A DNA stretch of 64,000 nt. It comes from an uncultured Bacilli bacterium. GTDB taxonomy: Bacteria > Bacillota_I > Bacilli_A > RF39 > UBA660. The DNA lies in NCBI GenBank assembly GCA_947589735.1, contig CANQCR010000001.1, positions 1 through 64,000 of the forward strand. Direction: 5' to 3'. The position numbers were made by a program, and so were the translations under genes. The notes below the pieces were generated by a model, which was not told the DNA's origin, made no database searches, and saw nothing but the letters and a program-made list of their open reading frames with translations. This document shows positions 40,600 through 50,388 of this stretch, one piece after another. Numbering within the stretch: the first letter of the stretch is position 1; each line of letters opens with the position of its first letter.

Positions 40600-40632
40600 G
40601 AAAAAATAGTATGAGATTAATCATACTATTTT
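40594..40632 (-). terminator. Terminator of the 1171-residue surface protein gene
   Basis: 11-bp perfect stem AAATAGTATGA/TCATACTATTT (40604-40614 with 40621-40631), a six-base loop and T's. The TAG stop is in the stem. Confidence 0.9.
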
Positions 40633-43600
40633 TGAATTATCATATTAGCCCAATTCATAGCTTTGATACTAGCAGCCATAGGACCAGTTACCTCTTCATA
40701 ATATGTATAATAATTCTTGGTCGCAGTAACATTTTTAATATCAAGGTCATAATTCTTTGTTTTACCCCTGTCATCATCAGACCAGCCTTTTAACTCATAA
40801 GTTTTTTGACCTTCGTCTTTACCAAGCGTTCTAAACTTAGCGTAAGATTGGAATGGTTGCCAAACAAATGGTTCACCAGGTTCAACTGGATTACCACCAT
40901 ATAAAACATAACGGATAGTAAGGTCAGCTGATGGCGTGTCTCTAAAAATAACGGTGTAGTATTTAGAGTTTTGCTCTTTTAAATAATAGTGAGCCCATTC
41001 AGTACCTTGAAGTTGATCAGAAGTATTAATATTATCCTGACCGATTAATTGACTGTATTTTTCTTTCAATCTACCTTCGCCATCATCATACTCATCGCAA
41101 TACTCTTCACCAATTACCCAAGCATTAGTTTCCCAAGTATGTTCCTTAAAGTCATCATTTTCATACTTTTTACCACCAAATGGAACAATAATCTTATAAT
41201 CATATGTAGCATAACCACTATGAACTTCGATATTGCCAGTGGTCTTAGATGATGAAGCAAGTCCACCCGTAATAGCATTACTACGTCTCGTTCTAATAAA
41301 TGGATGATTATAATCTTCTTTATTGTAAGATAATTCTCCATCAGCATGAACTTTACCAGCTATGAACATAGCCATTTCACTATTATCTACAAACTTAACA
41401 TTCATTAGCGATAAAGATGTAGATGGCTCTGGAACATTAATACCTTTTTTAGTACCTTTTATAGTTAAATCTTTAATATTAACATCCGTCTTAGTTCCAC
41501 CAACACCACTATATCTAATATCTAAAACGGTATCAGCTTCTGGTTTGTTTAAAGTAATAGTGGTACTAGCATCTGCCCCAAAAATACTAACAGAACGATT
41601 AATCATAACCGGGTCATTTACATCAAAATTATTACCAATTTTAATTGACTCATAATTGCCCCTTATAGCATTTTTTAATTCTGTTTCATTAGTAACAGTA
41701 ATAATACTAGATGCAACTTTAACTTTATAAGTAGCTGGTGATTCTTGACCCTCAACTGTATCAGCCGTATCCTTTAAAGTAATAGTTAAAGTTAATGGAT
41801 TATCACTATAATTATTTTCAATTAATTCATTTAAAGTAGCAGTTTCATAGGTACTACTATTCTTAGTAGCTATAACTTCAAGCAATTCCTTTAATTTATT
41901 TTTAATTTCATCTTCATCATTAGTAAACTCATAATCTTGATTATCATAGCTCATCTTAACATTTTGAACATTTTCATTAGCAACTACTTCTTTAATAGCC
42001 TTAGCAATACCTGTATTTCCAGATTCTACTAAAGTTTTAATGCTATCATCATTATGAGCTGCAGAATGACTATCATCACCCTTAGAAACATCAATGGTTA
42101 TAGTATTACCAAGTTTTGATACAGTAAAACTTTCCGTCTCTACTTTTAAAGCCATATCGCTAACTATGTTATCAATATCAACTAATGGAATCATTTTAGC
42201 TTTTAAAGTAATGTTAGCAGTTACTGGCGTCGTAAGCTCATATTTAGTAGAGTCAGGACCTGACTCTAGATACCAATGTGAAAAGCGATGACTCTCTTTA
42301 TATGGTGATAAATTAGGGTTAGCTTTATCAATAGCTTGTTGAACTGTCGTTCCGTGTTCAACACCATTAATTGTATCTAGAACGTCTTCATCAAGTTTAA
42401 ACGTTATTGTATAAGTCTTCTTTTGCCATTTAGCAACTAAAGTTATATCATTTACAATATTAGTTTTATCAAACTCAAATGGAGCTTGATTAACAACAGG
42501 TCCTCTTTGTAAGTACCAGCCCATAAACTCATAACCTTCACGTTCTGGTTGTTCTGTTGGATTTGAAGCCTGTTTGTTATATTCAACTACTTGCGTTGTT
42601 GGTAATTTTGACACTTCACTATCAACACATTCTGAATCATTTGGATCGCAAGCCTTAAAGTTAACATTGAATTTTTTAATTTCAAATTTAGCCTTTAAGG
42701 TTGTATCTTCAGATACTTCTGCATCAAAATTAAAGGCTGTGTTGTCATCAGTACCCTCTTTATACCAATGTTTAAAATCATATCCAATTTTAACTGGTGT
42801 TTTTGATGGTTGTGTTGGATGCTCAGGATATGTTACTTGAATGTTTTCAGGTAAGCCTGTGCAATCATCACAAGTAAACTTAATCGTATATTTTCCTGGA
42901 TTCCATTTACCTGTAATTGTTACATCTTCAACATAATCGGTCTTACCAAAAGGAACTTCCTCATCACCAATGAACCAACCGGCAAAGCCATAACCAGATC
43001 GTTTAGGATCAGGAGTTGGTTTTGTTGGTTGATCAGGATAAGTTAATTTTTGTTCCGCTTCCGTTATATCATCGCCATCAAAAGAAACAGTGTAACTAAC
43101 TCCTGCCCATTCAGCAGTTACTTTAATATTTTCATCTATTCCCTCTTCAAAACGGAAATCTTCATCATCCTTTTTCCATCCTACAAGAGTATAACCTCTT
43201 TTCGTTGGCTTTGGAGGTTCAACCATCGTTCCCCAATTAACAGTACGTTTTTCATATAAGTGACCTGGTTCATCATAAAACTCAACATCAAACTTTTTAA
43301 TTTCAAAACGACCTTCAACTTCGGTATTTCCAGTTAATGGTTCATCAAATTGATATTCAGTATCCGTACCCTTTAGAAACCAACCTTTAAAATCGTATCC
43401 TTCTTTCGTTGGGTCATCTTGTGGTTTAGTTGGCGTAAATGGATATGCACCACTTTGAGGTTGTTCACTTATACCATCACCACTAAAAGTCAAAGTATAA
43501 GTCTTTCCCGTCCATTTTGCTTTAAGTGTTAAAGCTTCATTAATAGTAGTACCAAAGTCAAACTTGTCAGCACCACCATCTTTATACCAACCATCTAAAT

Positions 43601-44141
43601 CATAGTGTTCACGTGTAAAAGCAGGTTGTTCAACGGTTTTTCCTTTTTCAACAGATTTGACTAGGTTATCTGTTTTACCATCATTAAAATCAAATGTTAC
43701 TTTATATTCTTCATTAATTGGAACATAATTAACATAACGAATATTTATTTTAGACGTATCCGTAAGTTTTGAATCGCCTAAAAAGTTATTTCTTACAACC
43801 CATTTATTGGTTACATCACCATTTCCATCTTTTTCTCTTCTTATTTGGAAAATAGTCATTTCTCCAAAAATTTGGTCAGTATCTTTTTTACCACTTACAT
43901 CACTAGGTTTAATACTTTTAGCAGCTAACATAACATCTTGAATGGTTAATTTATGATTAGCTGTAAAAACATAATCACCAACAACATAGGCAGTATCAGA
44001 ATTACTATCAACTTTATTAATTATGTAGTTAACGCCGAAATCTTTATCATCTAAAGCTACTTCAAAAGCTAGTGTCGTAGATAAGGATAAGACAAAAGTT
44101 AATAGCGCTACAAATACATACTGACAATATTTCTTTATCAT
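40626..44141 (-). CDS. Secreted multi-domain surface protein with seven InlB-type repeats
   Basis: 1171 residues. Signal peptide 1-25 (ending TTLAFE). N-terminal module (about 26-140) shared with two other proteins here: AYVVGDYVFTANHKLTIQDV and then a FQIRREKDGNGD segment. Seven Listeria-Bacteroides (InlB B/Flg_new) repeats follow at about 147-670, recognised by their G-W-[YF] or H-W-Y cores (DLDGWY, DFKGWF, TLVGWK, GFAGWF, DFKHWY, EFMGWY, RFSHWY). Then a helical/acidic part and a strand-rich segment around 825-960 (VTNETELKNAI, SVSIFGADAST, VNIKDLTIKG) like the start of a pectate-lyase beta-helix. The last 200 residues are unknown. No LPxTG and no C-terminal anchor, so attachment is not covalent by sortase. 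It has its own promoter. Confidence 0.85.
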   Translation of the reverse strand: MIKKYCQYVFVALLTFVLSLSTTLAFEVALDDKDFGVNYIINKVDSNSDTAYVVGDYVFTANHKLTIQDVMLAAKSIKPSDVSGKKDTDQIFGEMTIFQIRREKDGNGDVTNKWVVRNNFLGDSKLTDTSKINIRYVNYVPINEEYKVTFDFNDGKTDNLVKSVEKGKTVEQPAFTREHYDLDGWYKDGGADKFDFGTTINEALTLKAKWTGKTYTLTFSGDGISEQPQSGAYPFTPTKPQDDPTKEGYDFKGWFLKGTDTEYQFDEPLTGNTEVEGRFEIKKFDVEFYDEPGHLYEKRTVNWGTMVEPPKPTKRGYTLVGWKKDDEDFRFEEGIDENIKVTAEWAGVSYTVSFDGDDITEAEQKLTYPDQPTKPTPDPKRSGYGFAGWFIGDEEVPFGKTDYVEDVTITGKWNPGKYTIKFTCDDCTGLPENIQVTYPEHPTQPSKTPVKIGYDFKHWYKEGTDDNTAFNFDAEVSEDTTLKAKFEIKKFNVNFKACDPNDSECVDSEVSKLPTTQVVEYNKQASNPTEQPEREGYEFMGWYLQRGPVVNQAPFEFDKTNIVNDITLVAKWQKKTYTITFKLDEDVLDTINGVEHGTTVQQAIDKANPNLSPYKESHRFSHWYLESGPDSTKYELTTPVTANITLKAKMIPLVDIDNIVSDMALKVETESFTVSKLGNTITIDVSKGDDSHSAAHNDDSIKTLVESGNTGIAKAIKEVVANENVQNVKMSYDNQDYEFTNDEDEIKNKLKELLEVIATKNSSTYETATLNELIENNYSDNPLTLTITLKDTADTVEGQESPATYKVKVASSIITVTNETELKNAIRGNYESIKIGNNFDVNDPVMINRSVSIFGADASTTITLNKPEADTVLDIRYSGVGGTKTDVNIKDLTIKGTKKGINVPEPSTSLSLMNVKFVDNSEMAMFIAGKVHADGELSYNKEDYNHPFIRTRRSNAITGGLASSSKTTGNIEVHSGYATYDYKIIVPFGGKKYENDDFKEHTWETNAWVIGEEYCDEYDDGEGRLKEKYSQLIGQDNINTSDQLQGTEWAHYYLKEQNSKYYTVIFRDTPSADLTIRYVLYGGNPVEPGEPFVWQPFQSYAKFRTLGKDEGQKTYELKGWSDDDRGKTKNYDLDIKNVTATKNYYTYYEEVTGPMAASIKAMNWANMIIQK

Positions 44142-44229: not shown

Positions 44230-45933
44230 TTATCCTGTAAAACTAACTGAAGAATAATCGAATACGTAAGTATATGGAGCATATGCATCATCTTCACCAT
44301 CGACATCTACTTCAAATGTGAAGTTCTTTGTTCCAGCGCTTTCATCAAGTTTCTTTAAAAGTGATATAGTATCAGTTGTATCAAAAGCGTCATAAGTAAT
44401 AACTTTACCCGTTTTTGGATCTTTAATCGTCGTTTTACTATTAGCGCCATCGACTTTTAAAACAACAGCAAAGTAGTATCCTTCTACAGCTGGATTATTC
44501 ATACCATTGTATCTAACGTCACTTTTCTTAGTAATGGTACCAGTTATTTTATTTCCCTCTAATTTGGCTTCAGGATCATTACCACTATATCCAAGAACAT
44601 CACTTAAGTTCTTTTCGTAAGTGGCCTTATCAGGGGCACTAGATAAATCTAATGCCTCCGTTACTGTTATAGGTTGAAAAGTAATACCACTAAAGTCTAA
44701 ATTGATTGTAAACTCTTCATAAGCATCGCCATCAAATTTAACTTTAATTTCTTTATTTAAACTCTTCTTTGGATTTAGACTAAACAATACATCTAAGTCG
44801 TCATTAGCCACAACCTTAACTGTTTTGGTTCCACCCTCACAACTACCGCAAGGTAATGTTACAGTTGCTGCTTTATTATACTTTTTAAGTTCAATTCTAT
44901 AAGCAATATAATATCCCGTTGATTCTTCTTCATTAAAGATATTCTCTTTGGTTAAATCACCATGTTTTAAAGTTCCACTAAACTTACCATCTGTGTAAGT
45001 TACATCTTTTTGATTTGCTAAAGTATATCCCCAAGCAGTAGATGCGGTTGTTTGATTTTCAACTTCATTTGTTGCAAGAGGAGTTCCCTCAACTTTAGGA
45101 CTCTTAACAAAGTTCAAACCACTAAGATCAATTTCTAATTGATTAGGTTCGTATAAGTCTTCATCACCATCATAATCAACAACAACCGTTAATTTAGATG
45201 TAGCCTCACTTATACCAACAACATATAAAATAATACCATCTTCTAAGCTATCTTTATAGTTATATGGGCCATCGCCAGTTTCTTCAATTTTATAAGTAGC
45301 TTTATCTTGATACTCATCTGGTACTTCAATAACAAGTGAGACAAAGTAATGTGGTGTCTCTCCACTTGACCAATTTGGCATATGATCAACATAATATACA
45401 TCACCAGTTAAAACACCATCAACAAGCTCAATACTATCATCTTGTTCGTAGTCAGGTCCAAAGTATTTGCTAACTTGCTTACTAGCTGTTTCATCTAACG
45501 TAGATGAAACTTCAACTGTTGATTGTAAATGTAAATCACCTTCATAATCAACATAATCAATTTCAAATGTATCACCTAAAGAAGCTGATGCACTACCAAC
45601 AAAGTTATTTCTTTTAACCCATTTTCCAGTTGCCACACCCGTATCTTTATCTTTTTCACGTCTTATTTGATAAATAACCATATCATCAAGGCCTTCTTCG
45701 CCTTCTTTAGAGCTATCAATAGAACGAGCTGCTAACATAACATCTTGAACATTTAACTGATGATTAGCTGTAAAAACATATTTACCAACAACATAGGCAG
45801 TATCAACATCAGGAGCTACAGTATCAATTAAATCGCCAACATTATCTAAAGTTACTGTCATAGCTTTAGAACTCGTTACCATTCCAAAGAAAGCTACTAA
45901 GGCAACAACAAATAAACTTCCAATTTTTTTCAT
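44230..45933 (-). CDS. Secreted surface protein with shared N-terminal module and three long repeats
   Basis: 567 residues from ATG 45933 (AAGGGTGA upstream; a GTG at 45942 overlaps it). Signal peptide of about 24 residues ending SSKAM. The shared module follows: AYVVGKYVFTANHQLNVQDV and YQIRREKDKDTG. From about 150 to the end are three related segments of about 130 residues, each with a G-T/S-Ix or GDV strand, an ia/fa-V-xL strand and a closing pattern FDxS/LDLSG-hydrophobic-x-F (LEIDLSGLNF, INLDFSGITF, YVFDYSSVSF). One segment has CGSC. No InlB repeat, LPxTG or C-terminal helix. It lies 17 bases after a membrane-anchored Big_2 protein. Confidence 0.8.
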   Translation of the reverse strand: MKKIGSLFVVALVAFFGMVTSSKAMTVTLDNVGDLIDTVAPDVDTAYVVGKYVFTANHQLNVQDVMLAARSIDSSKEGEEGLDDMVIYQIRREKDKDTGVATGKWVKRNNFVGSASASLGDTFEIDYVDYEGDLHLQSTVEVSSTLDETASKQVSKYFGPDYEQDDSIELVDGVLTGDVYYVDHMPNWSSGETPHYFVSLVIEVPDEYQDKATYKIEETGDGPYNYKDSLEDGIILYVVGISEATSKLTVVVDYDGDEDLYEPNQLEIDLSGLNFVKSPKVEGTPLATNEVENQTTASTAWGYTLANQKDVTYTDGKFSGTLKHGDLTKENIFNEEESTGYYIAYRIELKKYNKAATVTLPCGSCEGGTKTVKVVANDDLDVLFSLNPKKSLNKEIKVKFDGDAYEEFTINLDFSGITFQPITVTEALDLSSAPDKATYEKNLSDVLGYSGNDPEAKLEGNKITGTITKKSDVRYNGMNNPAVEGYYFAVVLKVDGANSKTTIKDPKTGKVITYDAFDTTDTISLLKKLDESAGTKNFTFEVDVDGEDDAYAPYTYVFDYSSVSFTG

Positions 45934-45950
45934 TTTTATCACCCTTTCTT

Positions 45951-47453
45951 CTATTTTGCTTTAACAACTTTAACAGTCATACTATACATCTTGCCATCAT
46001 TTAATTTAATTTTTGTTCCACTAGCTTTAGTAGTTACTTGATCAGATGGAACAGTTAAATTAGCTGAACCATACCATTCATTATTGTAAAAGAATTGATC
46101 ATACTCATCAGAACTTAAAGTTTTGCCATTTTTTGTAACTTTAACAGAATATTGAAAAGTTAATAATTCTGTTTTTATCTCTGTTAAAGTTAAAACATAA
46201 TTATCAACAACTTTTACTTTATGAGTAGCCTCTTTACCATTACTAGCTTTAACGGTGATAGTAACATCTCCGGCTTTGACACCTTTGACTTTACCATTCT
46301 TATCAACAGTTGCTACTTTAGGATTACTACTTGTCCAAGTTAGTGTTTTATCAGCATTACTTGGTTTAATGGTAGCTTTTAAAGTAATGGTCTCACCAAC
46401 TTTTACCTCATCATCACCGGATAAACTAATATCCGTAACATTTCCACCACGAACACGAACGATTACAGAAGCAATATACTTACCATCTTTCGTCATTACT
46501 TTAACGATTGTTCTACCTGGAGCTTTTCCGGTAATCTTACCATCTTTATCAACGGATACAATATTTTTATCTTCAACGCTCCAAGTTACTTCCTTATTAG
46601 TCGCATTGCTAGGCTTAATTTCATAATCAAGATATAATTCCTGATTAATACTAATGGTTATATCATCTTTTTCTAAGGTAATTCCCTTAACTTTAACTGC
46701 TTCATCAGATACAGTAACTTCACAACTAGCTTCATACTTTCCATCTTTAGTTTTAACCGTTATTTTTGCCTTACCTTTTTTATGCGCTGTTAAATTACCA
46801 TCTTCGTCAACAGATACGATATCTTCATCACTACTTGACCAAACAAGTGAAACATCTTCAAAATCACGTGGATCTAGTTTAACTTCTAATTTAGATGTTC
46901 CATCAACCACTAGAGTAATTTCTTCATCAAGGCTAATTCCTTTAAGTCCTTCTTTTTCAATAGCTTTCCAACGAGCTTCTATTTTCATATCAGAAGTAAT
47001 CTCACGGTCAAAATCGAACTTTTCATCTTCACCGACAACATACCAACCCATAAACTCATAACCTTCTCGCACAGGATCAGCAGGCTTAAAAACTTTCCCT
47101 TTATCAATAATTTCTCTTTCAACAATATCGGTTCCATCATTAGCATCTAATGTAACCATATGGGTTTCTTCTTGCTTACTACATCTTAAGAATAATAGTA
47201 GACCAGCAAGACATATCATCAATACGAGAACAATAATACCGATAACTGAAGTTTTCTCATCTTCCTCTTGTTCTTCTACTAGCTCTACTTCTTCTACTAT
47301 TTTTTCTTCTTTAAGAGAAGTCTTAGCCTCTTTTGGTGGTTTATTATTAGTTTTTTTCGGTGCTTCTTTTTTAGGTGTTACTTTCTTTGTTGATTTTGTT
47401 TTACTAGAAGAACTAGTATTTTTCTTTGGCTTTTTAGCCGTCTTACTTTCCAT
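45951..47453 (-). CDS. Membrane-anchored protein with one InlB repeat and three Big_2 domains (copy A)
   Basis: 500 residues. Very Lys/Thr/Ser-rich then Glu-rich cytoplasmic part (1-67), one membrane helix (69-90), an InlB-type repeat (98-163, EFMGWY), three bacterial Ig-like Big_2 domains (about 170-248, 254-336, 340-416; each with a VxWSSSDExIVSVDxDG-like core) and a C-terminal module (418-500) that is shared with copy B: LTLTEIKTELLTFQYSVKV and EYDQFFYNNEWY. A long cytoplasmic tail and helix, not a cleaved signal, fix its topology. It precedes the gene for a secreted protein, mirroring copy B. Function unknown; adhesion or scaffold is inferred. Confidence 0.85.
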   Translation of the reverse strand: MESKTAKKPKKNTSSSSKTKSTKKVTPKKEAPKKTNNKPPKEAKTSLKEEKIVEEVELVEEQEEDEKTSVIGIIVLVLMICLAGLLLFLRCSKQEETHMVTLDANDGTDIVEREIIDKGKVFKPADPVREGYEFMGWYVVGEDEKFDFDREITSDMKIEARWKAIEKEGLKGISLDEEITLVVDGTSKLEVKLDPRDFEDVSLVWSSSDEDIVSVDEDGNLTAHKKGKAKITVKTKDGKYEASCEVTVSDEAVKVKGITLEKDDITISINQELYLDYEIKPSNATNKEVTWSVEDKNIVSVDKDGKITGKAPGRTIVKVMTKDGKYIASVIVRVRGGNVTDISLSGDDEVKVGETITLKATIKPSNADKTLTWTSSNPKVATVDKNGKVKGVKAGDVTITVKASNGKEATHKVKVVDNYVLTLTEIKTELLTFQYSVKVTKNGKTLSSDEYDQFFYNNEWYGSANLTVPSDQVTTKASGTKIKLNDGKMYSMTVKVVKAK

Positions 47454-47504
47454 ACTTACCTCTCCATTTTTCTATAATATCAACCCAATTATCCTTATAG
47501 CAAC

Positions 47505-47533
47505 ATTATATCAAACTAAAATACCTAAAGCAA
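47505..47533 (-). promoter_or_regulatory. Promoter of the copy-A surface cassette
   Basis: Minus strand TTGCTT (47528-47533), a 17-base spacer and consensus TATAAT (47505-47510), just after the copy-B terminator. So copies A and B are separate transcription units. Confidence 0.75.
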
Positions 47534-47537
47534 TAAA

Positions 47538-47576
47538 AAAGGTGGAAAAAGAGAAGTTTGTCACTTCTCTTACACC
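47538..47576 (-). terminator. Terminator of the copy-B surface cassette
   Basis: 8-bp stem AGAGAAGT/ACTTCTCT (47550-47557 with 47563-47570), possible outer GAGGTG/CACCTT pairing, T-rich tail; overlaps the stop codon. Confidence 0.8.
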
Positions 47577-48811
47577 TCAATTATATTATCTAAAACATCT
47601 CTTGGAATATCAAAGTCATCATTTTGATCGGCCTTAGATACTTCAACTGATTCTTCATATTTTGTATATAAAGGTTTTAAAGCATCTGTTAAAGCTGATA
47701 AATAATCGATTTTCATATTTGTAATATATCCATCTTTTATTTCAGCAATGACATCAACATCACCTTTGAAGTTATTAGGCTCATCAGTACTCATCTTACT
47801 GATTGGCAATCTTAATTTTAAAACACCATCTTCTTCACTAATAATTTCAACTTTCTTATATGGAATGTCAAACATTTCACCAATGGTACCAATTTCTAAC
47901 ATTTCTTCAGTATCACTTGAATGAGCCCACTGACCCGTGTCTTCATCTTTGATATATACATCAACTTTATTTCCTTCAATCTTTTGATAAGCTTCTACAT
48001 TAAAGTTAGCATCTTCATCATCTGGTGTTTCTTCTACTGAAGCAAGCATATAGATAACCTTAGTTGTTTTAGAGAAGAATAATTTTGAAAGTTCAACAAG
48101 AGATGTACCATCAGTTTTAGATATTTCAGCATGAACAATCAATTCCATACTATTAACATTAGCAGTCTTTAAAGCTGCTTTATCAAAAATACTAGCATAT
48201 GTCTCATAATGGGCTTCCAAAACAAGATCGTGAGTTACTTGTTCTTGAAAATTATATGGTGTATCTTTTCCTTCTTCAAACCATCCTAGGAATTTCTTTT
48301 CAGGGTCATTTGGTTTCTCTGGTTCTGGTAAGGTTTGTCCTTCTTCAACATGGCTTACCTTTAAATCTTTACCATCATTAAATGATACATAGAAATTATC
48401 ACTTACTTCATTATAATCAATAAAATCAATATCTATTTTATTGGTTGGAAAATCAGAATCACCAATAAAGTTTTTTCTTGTTCCCCATTTTCCAGTTGGA
48501 TTACCATTACTATCTTTTTCTCTTCTTATTTGAAAAATTGTCATCTTATTATAGGCCACAGTTCCGCTAGTTTCACCTTCAGATGGAACTGTATTAATTG
48601 AACGAGCAGCTAACATAACGTCTTGAACATTTAACTGATGATTAGCTGTAAAAACATAGTTTCCTATAACATAAGCGCTATCAATTTTAGAGTTAATTAA
48701 ATCAATTTCTCTTCCTAAGCCATCTAGGGTTACTTCTCTAGCAAAGCAAAAGGAAAAAGAAAAGAAGAAAGTGAAGAAAGCCATCAAAGACATTTTATAT
48801 AATTTCTTCAT
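47570..48811 (-). CDS. Secreted surface protein with shared N-terminal module and one InlB repeat
   Basis: 413 residues. Signal peptide 1-24 (ends SFCFARE). Shared module at about 25-125: AYVIGNYVFTANHQLNVQDV and FQIRREKDSNGN. One InlB-type repeat at about 143-202 (KFLGWF), then a C-terminal domain of about 210 residues rich in Asp, Glu and Lys with alternating strands (MELIVHAEISKTDG, KVDVYIKDEDTG), reminiscent of lipoprotein-type beta folds, family unknown. It starts 17 bases after the copy-B Big_2 protein. No wall-sorting motif. Confidence 0.8.
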   Translation of the reverse strand: MKKLYKMSLMAFFTFFFSFSFCFAREVTLDGLGREIDLINSKIDSAYVIGNYVFTANHQLNVQDVMLAARSINTVPSEGETSGTVAYNKMTIFQIRREKDSNGNPTGKWGTRKNFIGDSDFPTNKIDIDFIDYNEVSDNFYVSFNDGKDLKVSHVEEGQTLPEPEKPNDPEKKFLGWFEEGKDTPYNFQEQVTHDLVLEAHYETYASIFDKAALKTANVNSMELIVHAEISKTDGTSLVELSKLFFSKTTKVIYMLASVEETPDDEDANFNVEAYQKIEGNKVDVYIKDEDTGQWAHSSDTEEMLEIGTIGEMFDIPYKKVEIISEEDGVLKLRLPISKMSTDEPNNFKGDVDVIAEIKDGYITNMKIDYLSALTDALKPLYTKYEESVEVSKADQNDDFDIPRDVLDNIIEV

Positions 48812-48828
48812 TTTTTCTTCCTTCTTTC

Positions 48829-50388
48829 CTATCCAACAATCTTAACAGTTACATTTTCCACAAATGTTTTATCTTTTAATTTAATACGAGCTTTTAGCCC
48901 TGCTTTAACTTGATCAGCTGGCATCATTTGTGGTCCAGATTGATACCATTCACCATTGTAATAAATCTGATCATATTCAAAATCCGCACCATCTTTAGTT
49001 ACTTTAATAGAATATTGGAAAGTAGTTAATTCACTTTGAACTTTTGTTAAAGTAACTAAATAAACAGGAGCTGGCTTTGGTTTTTCTGTAATTATTATTT
49101 CTTTAGTTGCTGTCTTACCATTTTTCGTTGTTGCTGTTACTGTTACAGTTCCAGCTTTTTTAGCCGTTAATTTACCACTAGAATTAATCGTGGCTTGACC
49201 AGTTCCATTAGTAACTTTCCAAGTTACAGTCTTAACCGTTGTATCGGTTGGCAAGATAGTTGCAGATAGTGTAAGTGTTTTTCCTTCTTGAACAGTATTT
49301 TTACCATTAATAGTAATAGATTCAGCCATTACTTCTGGTTTAACAGTTACTTCTACTTTAGCCGTTTTACCATTAGATGTCTTAATAGTTATCGTTACTT
49401 TACCTTCTTTTAAGCCTTTAACGTTACCATTTTTATCAACAGTCGCAATCGTTGGATCACTACTTGTATACGTTACGGTTTTATCCGTTGCATCAGTTGG
49501 TGTTACTGATACTGTTATTTTAGCTGGAGAGCCATTAACGACAACCGTCGAACTTGATATTTTAGCCGTTACACCTTCAGCTGGAACAACACCCTTATCA
49601 ACTGTTAAGGTACAAGTTGCGGTAAACTTACCATCAGGTGTTGATACACTTATAGTAATAGTACCGGCTTTTAAAGCCTTAATATGACCATTACTATCGA
49701 CAGTAGCAACCGTCTCATTTGATGATGACCATACAAGGTCAACCTTTTTAGCATCTTCCGGTGATAAAGTCGCTACTAAATCAGCTTCGCCACCAACTTC
49801 AACAATTAATGTATCTCTATCTAAGCTAATACCCGTAATTTCTGCATTGTTAATAGCTTCCCAACGAGCTTCCAATGTTATATCACCAGTTATTTCGGTA
49901 TCAAAATCGAACTCTTCATCATTTAAATACCAGCCAACAAAGATATATCCTTCTTTCGTTGGATCAGCCGGTCTTTTAATTTTGCCGTTTTCATCAACTT
50001 TTAAGCTTCCAACCATGCTACCTTCATTGGTATCAAAACGAACTTCATATTTTTCTTTACTACAACCTTTCATAAAGAAGAACACACATAAAGCGATAAT
50101 AACTAAAATTGTGAAAATGATAAGGCCTAGATAACTTTTCTTATCTTCCTCTTCCTCCTCATCTTCAACAGCAAGATGATGGTCTTCATTCTTAGAAGTT
50201 TCTTTTAAAGCGCTATCATCATCAAAATGGTATTCGCTTTCAACACTTTCTTCTTTCGGTGCTTCCTCATAATCTTCATCAGTATCTGCTTTATTCACTT
50301 CGACGATATCATCGATATTATCATCATCGAAATCAAATTCTAAGTCATCTACTTCATCAGGTATGATATCTTTTTTATTATCTTCCAT
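48829..50388 (-). CDS. Membrane-anchored protein with one InlB repeat and three Big_2 domains (copy B)
   Basis: 519 residues; same design as copy A. The cytoplasmic part (1-85) is strongly acidic rather than basic, one membrane helix (86-106), an InlB-type repeat (113-178, FVGWY), three Big_2 domains (about 185-262, 268-352, 354-432) and the shared C-terminal module (440-519): LTKVQSELTTFQYSIKV, EYDQIYYNGEWY. The extracellular parts of A and B are clearly related, whereas the cytoplasmic tails are opposite in charge. It has a strong promoter upstream and is followed by a secreted protein gene. Confidence 0.85.
   Translation of the reverse strand: MEDNKKDIIPDEVDDLEFDFDDDNIDDIVEVNKADTDEDYEEAPKEESVESEYHFDDDSALKETSKNEDHHLAVEDEEEEEDKKSYLGLIIFTILVIIALCVFFFMKGCSKEKYEVRFDTNEGSMVGSLKVDENGKIKRPADPTKEGYIFVGWYLNDEEFDFDTEITGDITLEARWEAINNAEITGISLDRDTLIVEVGGEADLVATLSPEDAKKVDLVWSSSNETVATVDSNGHIKALKAGTITISVSTPDGKFTATCTLTVDKGVVPAEGVTAKISSSTVVVNGSPAKITVSVTPTDATDKTVTYTSSDPTIATVDKNGNVKGLKEGKVTITIKTSNGKTAKVEVTVKPEVMAESITINGKNTVQEGKTLTLSATILPTDTTVKTVTWKVTNGTGQATINSSGKLTAKKAGTVTVTATTKNGKTATKEIIITEKPKPAPVYLVTLTKVQSELTTFQYSIKVTKDGADFEYDQIYYNGEWYQSGPQMMPADQVKAGLKARIKLKDKTFVENVTVKIVG

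Follow-up and report, generated by a model that had tools for sequence, protein, structure and literature searches.

The locus described here raises the question of what holds a secreted protein that carries no anchor of its own at the cell surface, and whether a membrane-anchored protein encoded directly upstream could do so. It lies on the minus strand of the window, the whole stretch of 64,000 nucleotides that was analysed (positions 1 to 64,000 of contig CANQCR010000001.1, assembly GCA_947589735.1, from an uncultured Bacilli bacterium), and comprises three genes for secreted proteins, two for full stalks and one for a short stalk-like protein. These are ordered orphan TM-InlB gene (50833-50519; 104 aa), stalk B, secreted B, stalk A, secreted A and secreted C (44141-40626). 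A preliminary description had read the region as a plain duplication of a two-gene cassette; the two pairs stand, with all four open reading frames where it had placed them, but the third secreted gene and the orphan gene go beyond a two-pair duplication.

The two anchored proteins, stalk B (48829..50388; 519 aa) and stalk A (45951..47453; 500 aa), have a cytoplasmic tail, a transmembrane (TM) helix near the N-terminus, identified by hydropathy, as the cell-surface anchor, an InlB repeat (PF09479), three Big_2 domains (PF02368) and a C-terminal module, the tip, an architecture that had been proposed earlier and that Pfam confirms in both. In stalk B the InlB repeat (residues 114-174) is at 49867..50049, the Big_2 domains at 49099..49839 and the tip, matched by profile A6, at 48832..49065; in stalk A the InlB repeat (residues 99-157) is at 46983..47159, the Big_2 domains at 46221..46931 and the tip, also a profile match, at 45954..46202. 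The stalks share 38% identity overall and 49% in the tip (78-83 aa), which is unannotated in Pfam in both. The tails had been described as oppositely charged; that of stalk B is acidic (39 D/E, 6 K/R), but that of stalk A (14 D/E, 18 K/R overall) is basic in its first 44 residues only and acidic beside the membrane.

The secreted proteins A (44230..45942, with a likely start at ATG 45933), B (47570..48811; 413 aa) and C (1171 aa) begin with a signal peptide and a common N-terminal module (the N-module), the latter 107-115 aa long and with approximately 50% identity, as the preliminary description had proposed for A and B. The N-modules lie at 45544..45864 (A) and 43725..44069 (C), both profile matches, and at 48413..48742 (B), where profiles A3 and A5 match. 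Behind the N-module, secreted A has beta-rich repeats, secreted B has a single InlB repeat plus an uncharacterized part, and secreted C has seven InlB repeats and a further C-terminal region, so that InlB repeats are common to B and C; A and B have no significant similarity to each other in this part, in agreement with the earlier account of their second halves as dissimilar. Relative to the near-identical genome L024, stalk B has eight amino-acid changes, of which five are within the 78-aa tip (L024:4800-5033; Fisher p 0.003), and N-module B has zero changes; the most changed stretch is residues 994-1125 of secreted C (within 40626-41200), with the rest of the locus approximately 98-99% identical.

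The reported 17-base gap between stalk and partner genes is correct for pair B, but in pair A it is 17 bases only from ATG 45933 and eight from the listed GTG 45942. A promoter with a 17-base spacer can be read ahead of each pair, but this is weak evidence because the number of promoter-like sites in the region (56) is at the level that chance predicts (52), and promoters were discarded as a sign of duplication. Hairpins resembling terminators come after secreted B (47549..47571, minus strand; fold z -3.3) and the orphan TM-InlB gene (fold z -4.0), and folding identified none in the interval between secreted A and secreted C, the latter not being directly preceded by a stalk gene. Both G270 and G175 retain the succession of transketolase, MurF-like, TGT, metallophosphatase and InlB genes followed by stalk and partner, and the locus is therefore old in the genus; at the position of the orphan gene, G175 has a fuller relative with a TM helix, InlB repeat and two Big_2 domains and without a tip. 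Strong profile matches to the N-module and tip in the genome of the window are confined to this locus. Apart from it, a 900-aa protein (G000:C2:123375-124958; L149) carries six Big_2 repeats and is linked to neither domain.

Profiles built from the window identified relatives in other genera of the family, and wider profiles were then run on 288 genomes of the order. The N-module is present in 50 of these, the tip in 40 and both in 38 (Fisher p 2e-34). The two genes are not carried independently, which the preliminary description had named as an outcome that would refute the pair: 52 of 56 tip matches lie immediately upstream of an N-module match and on its strand, and in the fetched loci an anchored InlB/Big_2 gene comes immediately before 61 of the 66 N-module genes that have 300 bp or more of upstream sequence, compared with 8 of 308 other open reading frames. 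The distance from tip to N-module is 82-258 bp, approximately what a short gap plus a signal peptide would occupy. One of the four unpaired tips (G289) is in a locus cut by a contig end, and the five N-module exceptions are a near-identical relative of gene C, L134 and a second copy in L039 (each with a tip right upstream and the remainder of the stalk gene cut or missing), G192 (L126), where there is no adjoining stalk, and L147, a weak match. The stalk and its secreted partner are thus kept adjacent across dozens of genera of one uncultured gut-associated group. No N-module was found outside the family in class-wide and phylum-wide samples; a rabbit-gut MAG labelled Clostridia (L026) carries the pair, and among named relatives the nearest is a rabbit-gut MAG assigned to an uncultured Bacilli bacterium, with an N-module that is 98% identical. 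A search for single chains holding both domains gave none. We note that partners in two genomes of the same genus have two tandem N-modules (L114:1-3390, L132:361-3387), and that TM-anchored proteins with multiple InlB-like repeats adjoin pairs in several genera (L100:8286-13094, L112:1-912, L120:1-1107, L127:4610-5500).

The tip and the N-module also diverge together. Across 46 pairs their trees correlate with a Pearson coefficient of 0.57, against 0.08-0.16 for the N-module and other stalk domains, 0.15 for the N-module and the region that follows it in the secreted protein, and 0.21-0.31 for the tip and its own stalk. Bootstrap intervals of the differences in Pearson coefficient between tip/N-module and these controls exclude zero, and the result persists when the most divergent fifth is removed. 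A rank correlation computed from percent identity is weaker, with bootstrap differences that span zero. Shuffling partners within two-pair genomes gives p 0.065, and the co-divergence can come partly from linkage and co-inheritance.

Neither domain matches a Pfam family, and sequence searches of the PDB with both returned nothing useful. AF2 with a shallow alignment confidently predicts the tip as a seven-strand beta-sandwich (tip B, pLDDT 91), for which a fold search gives generic Ig-like matches only (best Z 4.8 over 69 residues, 2.9 A), and predicts the N-module with moderate confidence as an alpha/beta domain (N-module B, pLDDT 80), for which it gives nothing above noise. A phage, plasmid or defence origin was considered and rejected, searches of viral contigs, plasmids, phages and PADLOC having returned no match; matches of the stalks to PHROGs lie on the Big_2 region. 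We found no description of the pair in open-licence papers.

What lies between the membrane and the tip varies considerably, with one to six Big_2 domains or InlB repeats alone (L143, L144, L146, L148), and the tip and N-module stay; the stalk is replaceable. Some stalks (L039, L097, L103, L113) have lipobox-like LTGC or TGC motifs at their N-termini, in a position at which many others (among them L028, L029 and L036) carry KGC behind a TM helix. From these motifs the mode of anchoring seems interchangeable as well. The secreted partners have neither an LPXTG-like signal nor an internal TM helix (scored as a hydrophobic stretch beyond residue 60) in any of 67 cases. That the pair makes up for absent sortases was ruled out, as sortase matches are present in 105 of 117 family genomes and number five in the genome of the window.

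A genome of the same genus, G135, has a first pair and then a second stalk gene (G135:C7:92103-94252) coding for a basic tail, TM helix, InlB repeat and three Big_2 domains (43% identity to stalk B and 40% to stalk A), in which the tip is missing and the reading frame continues into an InlB repeat and a Pectate_lyase_5 region up to the contig end. This head matches Pectate_lyase_5 ('putative pectate lyase-like adhesive domain') with an E value of 2.6e-10, above the curated cut-off, and the same head region sits behind the N-module in other partners, with E values down to 1e-44 (L114, L136, L109) and weaker matches across genera; the L136 and L114 heads pass the Pfam cut-off for Pectate_lyase_5. 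The same head is thus either peptide-bonded to a stalk or part of an N-module protein, and the simplest reading of these sequences is that tip and N-module would together form the joint between stalk and head. The fusion comes from a single contig of a single MAG, so it may reflect misassembly.

We therefore favor, with a probability of about two in three, the reading that the cassette codes for a fibrillar adhesin split in two, with a dedicated pair of domains by which the head docks non-covalently onto the tip of the stalk. The first gene would provide a stalk of InlB and Big_2 domains ending in the beta-sandwich tip and anchored in the membrane by a TM helix, with a lipid probably taking that place in some relatives; the second, translated right behind it, would provide an anchorless head, exported by its signal peptide and starting with the N-module. 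After export the N-module would dock on the tip and hold the variable head at the outer surface, where adhesion is its presumed role. Duplication of the pair and change behind the N-module would give several heads per cell, namely A, B and the extra C, which may use tip A or tip B. Several observations count against the split adhesin: tip B has five changes relative to L024 and its N-module none, the G192 N-module has no neighboring stalk, the partner swap reaches a p value of only 0.065, and heads A and B match no known adhesive domain, a Pfam search for such domains in all three heads having given none.

A different role for the same contact would make the anchored protein a helper that assists export or folding at the membrane, the tip meeting the N-module briefly and the partner then being released to the medium. 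The gene order, with the helper first and a tight gap, fits this, as do the size of the partners (up to 2317 aa) and a third gene directly 3' of many large ones (L028, L029, L032, L035, L037, L098, L103, L104, L111, L118). This third gene codes for a protein with a signal peptide, a weak thioredoxin/glutaredoxin match, CxxC in most cases and a C-terminal TM helix, and mainly follows partners longer than 1200 aa (21 loci; p 2.6e-7 by Mann-Whitney test). Other members of its family occur commonly elsewhere in these genomes. A disulfide link involving the thioredoxin-like protein was ruled out, as partner cysteine content is lower where the gene is present. Up to six Big_2 domains followed by a tip would be an odd shape for a helper, and the G135 stalk is fused to a head; we consider the helper rather unlikely.

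Neighboring surface genes are often co-expressed, and adjacency could reflect nothing more than this, the two products acting side by side at the surface and not binding each other. The N-modules of G192 and gene C, with no stalk gene directly upstream, are compatible with such co-regulation, but three things speak against it, namely the strict pairing of both domains across genera, a co-divergence exceeding the level among other linked domains, and the fusion, and we regard it as unlikely. The last possibility, that the anchored protein is a signaling receptor for a secreted ligand and relays the signal through its charged tail, draws on the long tails found mainly in the genus of the window but is highly improbable, with tails short or absent in most relatives, no known signaling domain, and some in which a lipobox-like motif stands where the TM helix would be. 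Signaling through the tail is accordingly unlikely as a shared function, and of the anchored presenter or receptor with a swappable partner first envisaged, the presenter is well supported by gene order, co-occurrence, co-divergence, the anchorless partners with their differing bodies and the one stalk-head fusion, but the receptor is not.

If the split-adhesin reading is correct, it explains how large anchorless secreted proteins are retained at the surface in a widespread uncultured gut-associated group, and gives two new domain families a testable role as a natural plug-and-socket pair. It is somewhat better than an even chance that the tip and N-module are two undescribed families forming a non-covalent docking pair distinct from cohesin-dockerin, that this pair lets a single family of gut-associated uncultured Bacilli display exchangeable heads on generic stalks without sortase, and that the one-chain form in G135 has lost the joint or the two-chain form has gained it.

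Among known systems, internalin-type and LPXTG surface proteins share with this locus the InlB B-repeats, and the genome has five sortase matches, but the partners here have no sorting signal and the stalk is anchored N-terminally; leucine-rich repeats, sought by Pfam in the locus proteins, were not found. The cohesin-dockerin arrangement of cellulosomes (PMC5817068) is similar in having an anchored receiver and a terminal docking module that displays different proteins, docking in our case being presumed, and differs in that here each stalk has a single receiver, encoded as a pair with the protein it would dock. By the Pfam comparison the pair is not a cohesin-dockerin system, 17 N-modules and 15 tips having given no cohesin or dockerin match at E values up to 1. 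The closest resemblance is in parts to fibrillar adhesins, as presented in the excerpts of PMC8286594 and PMC9210967 used here, with a surface anchor, a repeated Big_2/Flg_new stalk and, in several partners, a Pectate_lyase_5 head; the G135 fusion has anchor, stalk and head in one chain just as fibrillar adhesins do. In the window, separate genes code for stalk and head and each product has its own dedicated domain, a stalk/head domain pair that those excerpts do not describe. The pair also bears on a remark in the excerpted part of PMC9210967, that many stalk-ended adhesin-like proteins may act through other cell-surface proteins.
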